Below are positions 5,227-38,998 of a DNA stretch of 64,000 bases, piece by piece. Position 1 is the first letter of the stretch. Each line of letters opens with the position of its first letter. The notes beneath the pieces were generated by a model. That model saw only the letters and a list, made by a program, of their open reading frames with translations, was not told the origin of the DNA and did not search any database. The position numbers were made by a program, and so were the translations under genes. Source of the stretch: Halichondria panicea (lineage: Eukaryota; Porifera; Demospongiae; Suberitida; Halichondriidae); contig NC_087393.1 of assembly GCF_963675165.1 (NCBI RefSeq), positions 5,411,702 through 5,475,701 on the forward strand, given 5' to 3'.

Positions 5227-10319
<5,093 letters not shown>

Positions 10320-30670: not shown

Positions 30671-33134
30671 ATGAAGACCTGCTCCCAATGTTGTGTGGCT
30701 GCTCTGACTTCCTTTCTCGTGTGGACATTAGGTCAGTTTGTTTGCAGACACCATAGCCACAGCCACAGGTAGTATACCACGTAGATAATGCTAATAGCTT
30801 GCATGCTAGGAAGGGGGAGGGGCTGGTACTAACCTAGCTGCTAACATCTCTCCTCTACTAGTGGATGCTGTGTATGTGTACAATGGTGACCCCTACCAGC
30901 AAACCAAGGCCCTTGGAGTGAGCAGTCTGGAGCTCAGCAAGACAAGAGATGGAGTCCCAATACACACACAAGGTATAATCCAACCCCTTAGCTAAACTAC
31001 TGGATGTACGCTAGTAGCCACGATAGCCTCCATACAGGTTTTTCTTTTTTCTGTGCTTAACTAAATCAGCAAGAAAAATAAGGCCTGGGACTGTGACGAG
31101 GCTATAGCCATGCATGATACACGTTGCATGGACTCACTAACTCCCTCTCCCCCCTGTAGTGGTTTGCATGGACTCACTAACTCCCCCTCCCCCCTGTAGT
31201 GGTTTGCATGGACTCACTAACTCCCCCTCCCCCCTGTAGTGGTTTGCATGGACTCACTAACTCCCCCTCCCCCTTGTAGTGGTTTGCATGGACTCACTAA
31301 CTCCCCCTCCCCCCTGTAGTGGTGTACCCGACTGACCCTGGAGTGTACGTCCCACTGTTGTTTATCCCCGGCCTCAATGGAGTGGTCTATCCGGAGGTCT
31401 ACTCCACAGTGACGACACGTCTGGCTAGCTATGGCTACCTACTGGCCTCAGTGGACCTCTACTGGCCCGTGGAAGAGGACAATCATGAGGACGTGGGTAG
31501 AAATGCTGAACTGGCATTCAAAGTTCTACAGTGGGTGAGTTGCTTCCCACTTTCTCTACAAGAGTACATATACTAGGCCTGTATACGTATCACAGAATTT
31601 AATTGCATATTTTTAGTAATAATATCTAAAAATATGCAATCAGAAGTGTCCCATTGAGAGTGTGTACTCACCCCTCACCTCAGTTGAAGGTTCACCTGGA
31701 GAGCCACTACCTGCCCTCAGCTGCCCCTAATGTGACTGTGGACTGGGGGAGGTTGGGACTGCTCAGTCACTCTCTGGGAGGGGACACTCTCATTAAGATG
31801 TTAGAGAGCAACAACATGTTCGCTAAGGTCTGCTGCTAGTATTCCCAGTATCTTATGCACACGCATCAAGAAATTAATCAATGGTTCAGGGATCGATCGA
31901 CTCTTTAAGCTGCTATAACTTGAATTCCGTGGATCCAATTTCAATGATTTTCTGAAAGCTTAGAAAGAGGCCTTTCAAATGGTGTCATCAAAGTTTATAT
32001 TTGAGAGATAAATACATTTGCCAATTTGGCCATACCATGGATAATAAATAGCCCATGGTCTGAGGCCGAAAAACGACAAATTAGGGTCCCGACAAAATGT
32101 TGGATTGCAACACGAAAGGTCTCTTTCTAAGCTTTCAGAAAATTGTAACATTTTTGACATTGGATCAACGGTACTGAAGTTAAAATTTTTTATGATTTTC
32201 TGAAAGCTTAGAAAAAAAGAATTCAAATGGTGTCATCAAAAATCATATTTGAGAGATAAAAGTATTTGCCGATTTAGCGATACCATGGATAATAGCCCAT
32301 GGTCCAAGGCCGAAAAACGACAAATTAGGGCCCCGACAAAATATTGGATTGCAACACATCGTTTGAAAGGTCTCTTTCTAAGGTTTCAGAAAATTGTAAA
32401 ATTTTTGACATTGGATCAACGGTACTAAAGTTAAGGCTGTTGAAAGATGTTCAACTACATCCCTCTCCATCAATGGTTCGGCGATTCTTTCAGCTGCCAT
32501 AACTTGAATTTCGTGAATCCAATATCTATGATTTTCTTAAAGCTTAGAAAGCTACCTTTCAAATGGTGTCATAAAAACTCATATTTGAGCGATACGTATA
32601 ATATAGTTACTGTACACCTTTATATACAGGCAGTGGTATTTATGGAGCCAGGAAGTTCCAGTTTCAAAGCTCCTCTCAACTATTCCATCCCTTCACTGTC
32701 GACAGGGACACAGCTGTGCACGGAGAAGCCTGCTTGTTGCCTGAGGGGAGACAGCTTTGATCACTTCTACACCAACATGCAGTGTCCAAAGATTGTCATG
32801 AACATCACGGTAAGAGCAACATCACCCCACCATCACCCTCACTTAATTACTACCCCTCCCCACACACGCACACACACACACACAGGGGGTGGGCCATTGC
32901 TCCATCATTGACGAGGTGGCATGGGACTTGTGTCACTTGAGCCACTTCTGTAAGACTGACAAGAACTCAGAACGTGATGTGTATCGTAGCCAGTTCATCC
33001 CCGGACTATTGGCATCGTTTTATGGAACATACCTCCAGGGAAACTCCGCCCTCTTACAGTACACCACCACCCCCTCCGACATGCCTCTACCAGTCAACTA
33101 TCTACACACAGACCTAAACTGTATAGTTAGCTAA
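30671..33134 (+). CDS. Secreted alpha/beta hydrolase, chlorophyllase/PETase-like fold
   Basis: Six exons (30671-30731, 30862-30972, 31320-31534, 31684-31827, 32630-32809, 32886-33134) give 319 residues. The first 20 form a signal peptide (MKTCSQCCVAALTSFLVWTL). YVPLLFIPGLNGVVYPEVYS is the strand and oxyanion region. LLSHSLGGD is the nucleophile elbow (Ser of SHSLGG). A later VGHCSIIDE carries the probable catalytic His. Several Cys residues (LCTEKPACCLRGD) suggest disulfides in a secreted protein. It resembles the chlorophyllase and dienelactone-hydrolase families in layout; substrate unknown. Intron 2 ends in five tandem 40-bp acceptor copies, and intron 4 is occupied by repeats. Confidence 0.72.
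31122..31320 (+). repeat. 40-bp tandem array of complete 3' splice-site modules
   Basis: The unit ggtttgcatggactcactaa + ctccccctcccccctgtagt is repeated five times, with AGs at 31158-31159, 31198-31199, 31238-31239, 31278-31279 and 31318-31319. Each copy includes a branchpoint-like cactaac, a pyrimidine tract and TAG. Only the last AG leads into the coding exon at 31320. The next upstream AG would add 40 nt and bring in an early stop. Confidence 0.92.
31888..32600. repeat. Two family A repeats in an intron of the hydrolase gene
   Basis: Two head-to-tail family A units, in the orientation opposite to the array at 1-1190, fill this 0.7 kb: tgattttctgaaagcttaga at ~31944 and again at ~32192, with aaaggtctctttctaag near 32115 and 32366. 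They explain the length of the 31828-32629 intron and the stray open frames in it. Confidence 0.85.
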
Positions 33135-33645: not shown

Positions 33646-34868
33646 TGTGGGTGTGTGTGTGTGGGTGTGTGTGGGTGTGTGTGTGTGGGTGTGGAGGTAA
33701 TTATGACAAAGGTTTACTCTTGAAAGGAATTGGCCCACATCCAGGCATCCAAAGCCACTCCTATTGAAAGTGTCAGTCAAATACTTAATCATCATGACAT
33801 AATTATGCTACAACCCTTCTATTTGAGAAATGTAAGTCAACCACTAACTACACTATAGGCCTGTACACTAGCCAGCCACACTATAGGTCTGTGCACTAGC
33901 CAGCCACACTATAGGCCTGTACACTAGCCAGCCACACTATAGGCCTGTACACTAGCCAGCCACACTATAGGCCTGTACCCTAGCCAGCTACACTATAGGC
34001 CTGTACACTAGCCAGCTACACTATAGGCCTGTACACTAGCCAGCCACACTATAGGCGTGTACATTAGCCAGCCACACTATAGGCCTGTACCCTAGCCAGC
34101 CACACTATAGGCCTGTGCACTAGCCAGCTACACTATAGGCCTGTACACTAGCCAGCCACACTATAGGCCTGTACCCTAGCCAGCCACACTATAGGCCTGT
34201 GCACTAGCCAGCCACACTATAGGCCTGTGCACTAGCCAGCCACACTATAGGCCTGTACACTAGCCAGCCACACTATAGGCCTGTGCACTAGCCAGCCACA
34301 CTATAGGCCTGTGCACTAGCCAGCCACACTATAGGCCTGTGCACTAGCCAGCTACACTATAGGCCTGTACACTAGCCAGCCACACTATAGGCCTGTGCAC
34401 TAGCCAGCTACTAAATCCCCTTTGTGCGTGGGTATGATTATCTGAGGTACAGTTTCCTTGTGTGAGGTACAGTTTCCTTGTGTGAGGTACAGTTCCTTGT
34501 GTGAGGTACAGTTCCTTGTGTGAGGTACAGTTTCCTTGTGTGGGTATGAATGCACACTTCCCCTGGTTTTGGTAGCTCATCAACGACTATACACAGTCAC
34601 ACCATAGTTATCAATAGTTAGAAATGCAATCAGCCTTGATTGAGTTGATGGAGGTCAATTAGTGAGGAATTTTTGCTTAATTTTTTTTAAGTAGGTTGTA
34701 TGTCTCACATTTCTGAGTCCTGGTGAGTAGTTCCAGTAGAAGCATGAATCCCATGTTGGTGACCACTGAGAGGCCGAGGGCAGCTAGCATCCATATCATC
34801 TGGACGCTGTGGAAGATGTATATGCCCAACAACAATGCTGCCACTGTGTGTGTGTGTGTGGGGGGGTA

Positions 34869-37072: not shown

Positions 37073-38998
37073 TCACATCTTTGGCTTGAATCCATTTTTC
37101 TCTTCTCTTAGAAACTTCATAGTAGAGATAGGGTCGGTTGTCTTACAATGATTCTGTACACTCGCCTCACTGTGTGTGTGTGTGCGTGGGGGGGTTAGGG
37201 TGTGGTAGCAAGACTATGTGTGCGTGTGAGGGGGGTTAAGGTGTGGTAGCAAGACTAGTGCATGTGAGGGGGTTAGGGTGTGGTAGCAAGACTAGTGTAG
37301 TGCACACACACAGCATATGTATCTCACCTCACTCTCATGAAGGGGTTAAAGGACAACTCCTGTCCTATGGTGGAGGGGATGGTGGGTGTGTCCCTCTCAC
37401 GCTTATCCTATACCAGATAATAGAGATAGTTACACTAGTGTCTACACACCATCCCCACCTTGGCCCACTGTAGCTTCTCACTGAGAGCTTTGTTGTCTGG
37501 CTCCACGTGTTGGGCATACAGCAGGTTACTAACAGTGTACTCATGGCCACAGTACACACCCTACAGTGTGTGTGAGGTGTGTATGGGTGTGTGTGAGGTG
37601 TGTGGGGTGGGGCTCACAGTGTCGGGGGGCAGAGAGGACAACACTTGACAGAGAGCATGATGCATCTGTTCAGGAGTGCCCTCAAAGAAGCGGCCACAAC
37701 CACCAACAAATAGAGTGTCCCCTGTAATACACATGTACAACATAGCCACACCCATTACCACACCCACCTGTGAAGACAACCTTGTCCGAGAGGTCCTCAC
37801 TAGTTACATAGTAACAGATGTGCCCCTTTGTATGACACGGAGTCTCTAGACACGTCACAGTCAGACTGCCCACCTACAGTGTGTGTGTGTGTGTGAGTGT
37901 GTGTGTGTGTGTGAGTGTGTGTGTGGGTGGGTGTGGAAGCCATATATGTGTACCTTGAACTGATCGTTGTGTTTGACTGTTTTATTGAGAGCTCCAATTC
38001 TGTCGTCATTACCGCACACAGTCAGTCCAGTCACCATGGAGACAAGCTTCTCATTGCCCTCAGCATGGTCACTGCATTGCGAGGAGATCATAGTATAATT
38101 ATATATCGTATTACTAGAATGTTTTGCGAGCATCAAACATTTGCGAACTTTGCGAGGGTTCATCAATTCGCAACAATTAAATCCGCAAAACCCTAGTAAA
38201 TACACACGATCCTTTCCAGAACGCAATAGTTAGATCGCAAAGGGTCAAATTTTCTGCTGATTTGGCTCATTCGCAAAGGTTTCTCACCAGCAGAATATTC
38301 TAGCAATACGGTACTAAAGTCTTACTTGATGCTAGCTAAAGAGCTAATATTATAATAAAATACGAGAGGGGGGGGGTCTTACAGGTGGTGGTGGGTGGTG
38401 AGGACAGTGGATAGGTGGAGTCCCTCGCTCTCTACAGCAGACACAATCTGTAGCCAAGGTAACACATAATAATCACTGCTATTTAGAGTATGATAGCCAC
38501 ACTCTACATGATTTGGGCCCGAAAAAATCATTGATCTAAACACACCATCTTGTAGCTCTATCAAAGCTACTAAATGAACATTTTATTTTACAATCGTAAC
38601 TCAAGTTATAGGGGAGTCAAAGTTAATTACATACTTACATGTTCTGGCTTGACAGGGTCGACAGTGGCAGCTTGTTTGGTGCTCTTGTCAATGAGGAGGT
38701 ACATGTAGTTGTCCGACAATGCTGGGAGGAGCTTAATTGTCATGTGACCCAGGTCCACTGTAGAGCGACTCATGGTGGAGGCAGCACGTAGGAGTGAGGG
38801 GGTGTGAAGTGTGGGGGTGTGGAGACGTGGGCGTGAGGGGGTATGCAGACGTGACAAACGTGCTGCATGCGTTAACAATACATATCAAGTGATTATCAAA
38901 TATGTATAAAGATAAGAGCTTCCCTCACCAGTGATGAGCTTCTTGAGATCTCCTAGCCTGTAGGAAGAGAGACGGGCGCGCCGGGCTGAGGCTATCAT
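37073..38998 (-). CDS. HAGH: HAGH, hydroxyacylglutathione hydrolase (glyoxalase II)
   Basis: Nine exons sum to 966 nt (321 aa; human mitochondrial form 308). The N-terminus ([20 protein letters not shown], then several HTP repeats) is rich in Arg/His and lacks acids, as in a mitochondrial presequence. An internal Met starts [19 protein letters not shown], where the cytosolic form of the family begins. The metallo-beta-lactamase zinc motif is TTHHHLDHAEG, followed by [23 protein letters not shown] and YCGHEYT. It ends with the family-typical FNPFMRVR and [17 protein letters not shown]. Role: hydrolyses S-lactoylglutathione to lactate and glutathione. The start codons of HAGH and DNAJC12 are 166 bp apart. 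Confidence 0.95.
37185..37300 (-). repeat. ~40-bp tandem repeat beside the last HAGH acceptor
   Basis: Three copies on the plus strand of gttagggtgtggtagcaaga + ctagtg-type sequence, ~40 bp apart. On the coding (minus) strand each holds a cctaac branchpoint-like word and a C run, lying just upstream of the acceptor at 37170-37172 or downstream of the donor at 37327. Confidence 0.8.
38104..38313. mobile_element. Family M1-related inverted-repeat element in a HAGH intron
   Basis: The left end tatcgtattactagaatgtt pairs imperfectly with the right end agaatattctagcaatacgg. The interior has repeated tttgcga / tcgcaaa words. About 210 bp with no coding potential. Confidence 0.6.

Follow-up and report, generated by a model that had tools for sequence, protein, structure and literature searches.

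A minisatellite in the human gene IFI6 (6-16) is reported to supply several splice donor sites (Turri et al. 1995), a tandem duplication across an intron-exon boundary is described as having given a new intron in the potato RdRp gene (PMC4974935), and introns in Drosophila are described as gained via tandem duplication of proto-splice sites (PMC2891723). Tandem acceptors of the NAGNAG type are spaced 2-12 nt apart according to TassDB2, and direct repeats of 4-30 bp are mentioned at intron borders generally (PMC11782384). Acceptor modules repeated as minisatellites appeared in no report among the literature matches listed. The array examined here lies in the window, that is, the whole stretch of 64,000 nucleotides of Halichondria panicea DNA that was analysed, at exon 3 of a gene which, to judge by its predicted protein, is a chlorophyllase-like hydrolase (Table 1). 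It is a further example of a minisatellite, or duplication, over a splice junction, here of acceptors and in five copies.

Tandem Repeats Finder places the array at 31124-31323 (period 40, 5.0 copies, 98% matches, score 386), with the unit TTGCATGGACTCACTAACTCCCCCTCCCCCCTGTAGTGGT repeated five times head-to-tail, and thus confirms the five 40-bp copies with branch-point-like motif, pyrimidine tract and TAG that the original prediction had described. The extent given there, 31122..31320, denotes a real array, but begins two bases early and ends three bases short, within the four exonic bases that close the last unit. The sequence shared by copies 2, 3 and 5 is altered at one base in copy 1 and at one base in copy 4 (2 variant bases in 200). 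Each unit contains CACTAAC, which is branch-point-like, a C-rich tract, TGTAG and then TGGT; 36 of its bases belong to the intron and 4 to the exon, and it hence spans the intron-exon boundary. The TAG ends of copies 1-4 fall at 31159, 31199, 31239 and 31279, exactly the four junctions named beforehand, and the TAG end of the fifth falls at 31319, adjoining the coding exon. Head-to-tail units of tens of bases at high identity are what defines a minisatellite; the complete splice-site module, found in 5/5 units, is the mark of the IFI6 type, and the presence of both intron and exon bases in the duplicated unit that of a boundary-crossing tandem duplication. On the complementary strand, the unit shows just two G runs, of 6 and 5 bases, as compared to the at least four runs of three G per unit on one strand expected for a G-quadruplex. 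A 40-nt intron would fall under the 5th percentile (53 nt) of the 247 predicted introns (gene finder minimum, 35 nt). Predicted folding of the array-bearing intron does not surpass that of its shuffles (z -0.23), and RNA structure as the reason for last-site choice was rejected on this value. A 7-bp inverted repeat (CCATGCA ... TGCATGG) lies at the array's left edge (31107-31130) and is paired in the predicted fold.

With IFI6 the array has in common that a minisatellite straddles a splice site and carries one site in each unit; the human case, however, concerns donors for which use of alternative units was reported, whereas the present one concerns acceptors known from sequence alone. The likeness to the potato gene, as that report describes it, lies in a boundary-crossing duplicate that takes over the branch site together with the pyrimidine tract and the 3' splice site; the outcome there was a new intron, whereas the five short copies here would lengthen an existing one. 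The Drosophila cases, as described, likewise involve splice signals multiplied by tandem duplication, with early stops alongside, but the duplicated elements are exonic AG/GY sites and not the whole 3' end of an intron. As in the NAGNAG type recorded in TassDB2, several acceptors stand in series before one exon; their spacing is 40 nt here, however, and each has its own branch-point-like motif and tract. CEB1, as presented in PMC2673046, has units of 36-43 bp as compared to 40 bp here, and one of its strands is G-rich; the hydrolase unit differs from it in having two G runs only, with no G-quadruplex predicted.

Table 1. Positions of the hydrolase gene, its repeat array and other repeats discussed (window positions unless another sequence is named)
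Feature	Position	Strand	Remarks
Exon 1	30671..30731	+	signal-peptide-like start MKTCSQCCVAALTSFLVWTL; boundary by hand from sequence and phase; missed by gene finder
Exon 2	30862..30972	+	ends CACAAG/GTATAA, phase 1; by hand; missed by gene finder
Intron 2	30973..31319	+	347 nt, of which the last 196 are array
40-bp copies of hydrolase array	starts 31124, 31164, 31204, 31244, 31284	+	CTAAC, C-rich tract, TAG and TGGT in each
TAG of last copy	31317..31319	+	sole frame-keeping acceptor among five; exon start 31320
Exon 3 of chlorophyllase-like hydrolase (predicted)	31320..31534	+	start 31320 also set by self-trained gene finder
Exons 4-6	31684-31827, 32630-32809, 32886-33134 (span 31684..33134)	+	gene finder boundaries
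Array at acceptor of TRAF-zinc-finger (TRAF7-like) gene	7448..7769	+	8.1 copies of ~40 bp; last acceptor 7756/7757
Array in last intron of HAGH-like gene	37178..37298	-	3.1 copies of 41 bp; adjoins acceptor module ending 37169
Wide-zone acceptor arrays outside window (3/11)	L003 34-182, L010 4632-4696, L010 9324-9389		
C-rich CAG repeats	G000 C1 62152 to 3070252 and 13294041		among the matches listed

In Pfam, the protein joined by hand is matched by chlorophyllase (PF07224, 6.4e-21), in agreement with the earlier assignment of the downstream exon to a hydrolase, and weakly by PAF acetylhydrolase (2.3e-4). Exon 3, in the frame set by exon 2, reads VYPTDPGVYVPLLFIPGLNGVVYPEVYST. In that frame, entry at 31159, 31199 or 31239 leads to a stop after 25 codons and entry at 31279 to one after 17; the full protein continues only from the acceptor 31319/31320, the other four of the array leading to stops. 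Nine acceptor arrays were entered into the same frame test, in which an upstream AG was accepted if it had a pyrimidine before it and at least 8 pyrimidines among the preceding 12 bases. One array (L048) gave no upstream AG passing this filter. The eight remaining arrays had 45 such AGs, a few of which lie in flanks or in exon-derived sequence of the arrays. Thirteen of the 45 are in frame by length, and all 13 hit a stop; another four meet no stop inside the examined stretch, yet are out of frame. With the frame kept open from 0/45, the last site would be the productive one, and the last copy therefore appears to be the spliced acceptor, a conclusion drawn from frame rather than from RNA.

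Arrays of this kind recur. The original prediction had drawn attention to a similar array in TRAF7 and to another of similar spacing near the last acceptor of HAGH, and both are found (Table 1). The TRAF7-like gene has a TRAF zinc finger (PF02176, 8.6e-10). The exon that follows the HAGH-like array (26 residues read) presumably resembles the HAGH C-terminus, and NCBIfam gave no match for it; both gene names, TRAF7 and HAGH, which are also those of the original prediction, are presumptive. In the 131.5 Mb assembly with 17 large sequences of which the window is part, a strict pattern of the doubled acceptor module gave 21 matches at 8 distinct loci, as compared to a single one for the reversed control. 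Flanking sequence was read at the seven loci other than the window's, and a coding-looking exon directly follows the last copy at 7/8 loci, window included. Database support is available at four of these seven, namely the hydrolase, an asparaginyl-tRNA-synthetase-like (NARS-like) exon (PF00152, 3.9e-16), a 3-beta-HSD-like exon (PF01073, 2.1e-6) and a coatomer-beta exon (PDB 5a1u, 4.9e-7), the other three (L019, L025, L023) being counted as coding from reading frame only. The exon at L023 may be TM9SF-like; it had no match in Pfam or PDB and just an unrelated one in NCBIfam (E 0.79). The eighth locus (L032-L034) is a 33-bp repeat, read as coding. Six of the seven acceptor loci lie on the plus strand, which can be chance; a tool artefact as the source of this preference was rejected, the search with a complementary, looser acceptor pattern (58 matches versus 35 in the control) having recovered the same arrays in 23 of its 58 rows. 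L048, although fetched as a donor-pattern place, is an opposite-strand acceptor array in an NSF-like gene (PDB 1d2n, 7.3e-8). The recurrence of arrays of whole 3' splice-site modules is confirmed, in nine genes as we read them, of which five have database matches.

The anatomy seen at acceptors occurs likewise at donors. For these, a pattern of similar information (AGGTRAGT twice, 15-45 bases apart) gave 52 matches as compared to 96 for the reversed control, so that the count itself is uninformative. Ten array-like places were picked by eye from the 52 matches and about 0.4 kb of each was inspected. Five of the 10 (L040, L044, L045, L046, L049) are donor arrays at exon ends, in which the open frame ends at the first copy and the units repeat exon bases; four show no coding exon within the ~0.4 kb fetched. 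Clear families are evident for two of the five (short-chain dehydrogenase, 4.5e-14; dsRNA-binding, 7.5e-7), while one exon has a weak match below its cut-off (0.0087), that of L040 has no match in Pfam or PDB, and L044 was called coding from its open frame. The common mechanism at acceptors that had been proposed is, accordingly, upheld in one part only: module arrays do recur (7/8 strict loci, TRAF7-like, NSF-like), but with donors at 5/10, a targeting of acceptors is unsupported.

The placement of arrays was evaluated in a sample of 234 kb, consisting of the window and of one 10-kb stretch from each of the 17 large sequences, taken at a fixed coordinate. A small gene finder self-trained on the same sequences predicted 315 exons, 273 acceptors and 265 donors, and misses exons (4/6 found in the hydrolase gene). 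The sample holds 60 tandem arrays of period 18-120 and 25 of period 25-60, 4 of the 25 inside exons; an array was taken to touch a site when it overlapped -10 to +3 bases of it, and the null was random placement largely outside exons. The enrichment at acceptors on which the original prediction depended is not seen at this low power: in a small sample, arrays of period 25-60 touch acceptors 2 times (TRAF7-like and hydrolase, both in the window) against 2.44 expected and donors 0 times against 2.27, and in the 17 outside stretches 0 of 17 such arrays touch acceptors against 1.32 expected. For periods 18-120, acceptors are touched 7 times versus 3.84 expected (p 0.07) and donors 3 times versus 3.70; the seven acceptor touches are all in the window, which was chosen for holding such arrays, and several are low-complexity CA- or C-rich tracts. 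In a wider zone of -30 to +3, where counts come without a null, 11/60 arrays lie at acceptors and 6 at donors. Arrays of period at least 10 are within 15 bases of 11/140 acceptors versus 4/134 donors of strong exons, and of 14/273 versus 10/265 when all exons are considered. Single modules in the sample number 40.6 (acceptor type) versus 38.5 (donor type) per Mb of strand, and of the single acceptor modules not in arrays ~3/12 resemble genuine acceptors by eye, as compared to 7/8 of the doubled ones. Given that few predicted acceptors fit the search pattern (2/273, versus 7/265 donors), the 7 acceptor and 5 donor arrays may mean, with counts this tiny, that real acceptors carry arrays several times more often than real donors do. 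Taken together, acceptors may be in modest excess.

The shared period of ~40 bp, considered as proof of a common mechanism, was rejected: periods of 35-49 occur in 11/40 arrays of the 17 outside stretches, and the length is not special to acceptors. A preference of microsatellites for acceptors was also rejected, simple-unit arrays being found within 15 bases of 19/273 acceptors and 16/265 donors, with no acceptor excess. CA repeats run straight into the acceptor of predicted introns in the window at 7145, 32885, 33583, 34843, 36500 and 27049; GT or TG repeats begin at several predicted donors (e.g., 47110 and 36266), with a frequency about equal to that at the acceptor end.

Based on the collective evidence, the hydrolase array is probably a young minisatellite born across the intron-exon junction, placed approximately at random and tolerated there. 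Similar repeats lie at exon starts and exon ends of other genes, and the array thus looks like an ordinary minisatellite that covers a splice site by chance. One short tandem duplication would have copied the last 36 intron bases together with the first 4 bases of exon 3, and later growth in copy number would have led to the five units. Break repair or paired nicks, then copy-number growth, would suffice as the mechanism of duplication. The array would survive because a full 3' splice site in the right frame is present in the copy adjoining the exon, and with that copy intact the remaining ones would become intron; donors would present the mirror image, the first copy being the one left intact. 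In a compact, gene-dense genome that is rich in such arrays, the acceptor position would be about what random placement leads one to expect. Directly in support are the anatomy of the array, the frame arithmetic, the donor counterpart and the observation of no excess over random placement in the small sample; the duplication history, the neutrality and the use of the last acceptor are what we infer. Polymerase slippage on short pyrimidine-rich ends, proposed earlier for the duplication, is not indicated, since the edges of the hydrolase array share 0 bp, and the unit ends are not pyrimidine-rich. Edge homologies of ~4 and ~3 bp, estimated by arithmetic from array lengths for the TRAF7-like and NARS-like arrays, make the picture a mixed one.

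It is possible, though we consider it doubtful, that the C-rich tracts of acceptors (with G-rich template) are duplication hot spots, in the way that G-rich minisatellites like human CEB1 are unstable. Acceptors would then be hit because their tracts are C-rich, and donors via G-rich intron starts. By eye, the tracts in all seven strict-pattern acceptor arrays are C-rich even though T-rich ones were allowed, G runs are present in several donor arrays, and the unit length and G-richness of CEB1 reported in PMC2673046 are in keeping with the idea. A doubled-module pattern with C tracts gave 103 matches versus 26 in its control, at least 40 of the rows being dispersed-repeat copies on C1. Yet only 8/25 arrays of period 25-60 have a run of at least 5 C or G, which argues that such runs are not needed; the complement of the hydrolase unit has two G runs, not four, and C tracts before CAG are already commoner than T tracts in the sample (12 versus 4).

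The mechanism of the original prediction, a specific duplication of 3' splice-site modules, seems very unlikely to us. The recurrence in nine genes and the excess of strict-pattern matches over the reversed control would agree with it, as would the lead of acceptor over donor arrays in the wide zone and the leaning to acceptors of the per-site, strong-exon, period 18-120 and single-versus-doubled module counts. However, the search pattern selects acceptor-like units, so that the acceptor location of the arrays is partly built in; moreover, donors show identical anatomy, arrays of period 25-60 are not enriched over random placement in the 234 kb, and the edges of the hydrolase array are without homology. 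Just as improbable is an involvement of the array in splicing control, with extra copies competing with the last site and diverting transcripts to early stops, and copy number tuning the output. The upstream copies are intact modules, and the frame was kept in none of the tested uses; however, there is no sign of constraint beyond youth, and stops are expected anyway, because the repeats hold TAA and TAG and their length is not a multiple of three. A rather improbable extension of tolerance is that splice-junction minisatellites constitute a recurrent class (also in NARS, COPB1 and NSF homologues) from which the spliceosome reliably picks the outermost site; their tolerance would be due to the first donor, or the last acceptor, being taken from a near-identical series. 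If true, the arrays would vary module dose naturally and so expose the rule by which a 3' splice site is chosen, and alleles differing in copy number could adjust what fraction of transcripts is stopped.

The arrays matter because in them ~3 to 13 3' splice-site modules, almost identical to one another, precede a coding exon, and none of the upstream AGs examined keeps the frame. They provide a natural test, readable by ordinary RNA reads, of which end of such a series prevails, that next to the exon or that closest to the 5' splice site. They also advise caution, in that striking splice-site repeats can be common minisatellites placed by chance. Additional repeats came into view. A 28-bp unit (ACACTATAGGCCTGTACACTAGCCAGCC) is repeated 20 times at 33850-34408 of the window, outside predicted exons. 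Similar dispersed sequence, with a core like TTTCAAATGGTGTCAT together with GAAAGCTTAGAAAG and partly inverted, is recognized by eye at ~31950-32600 of the window, at ~2200-2320 of L024 and at ~1850-1930 of L031. Repeats with two C-rich CAG motifs (e.g., CCCCCTTTTCAGAGAGGTGTCACATTCC...) make up at least 40 rows, which among the matches listed are all on the largest sequence, and at least 38 of these rows lie within its first 3 Mb. At 9579, 3962 and 2020 of L006 and at 7049 of L015, the stretches opposite predicted coding frames are almost the same, in the manner of a multi-copy element.
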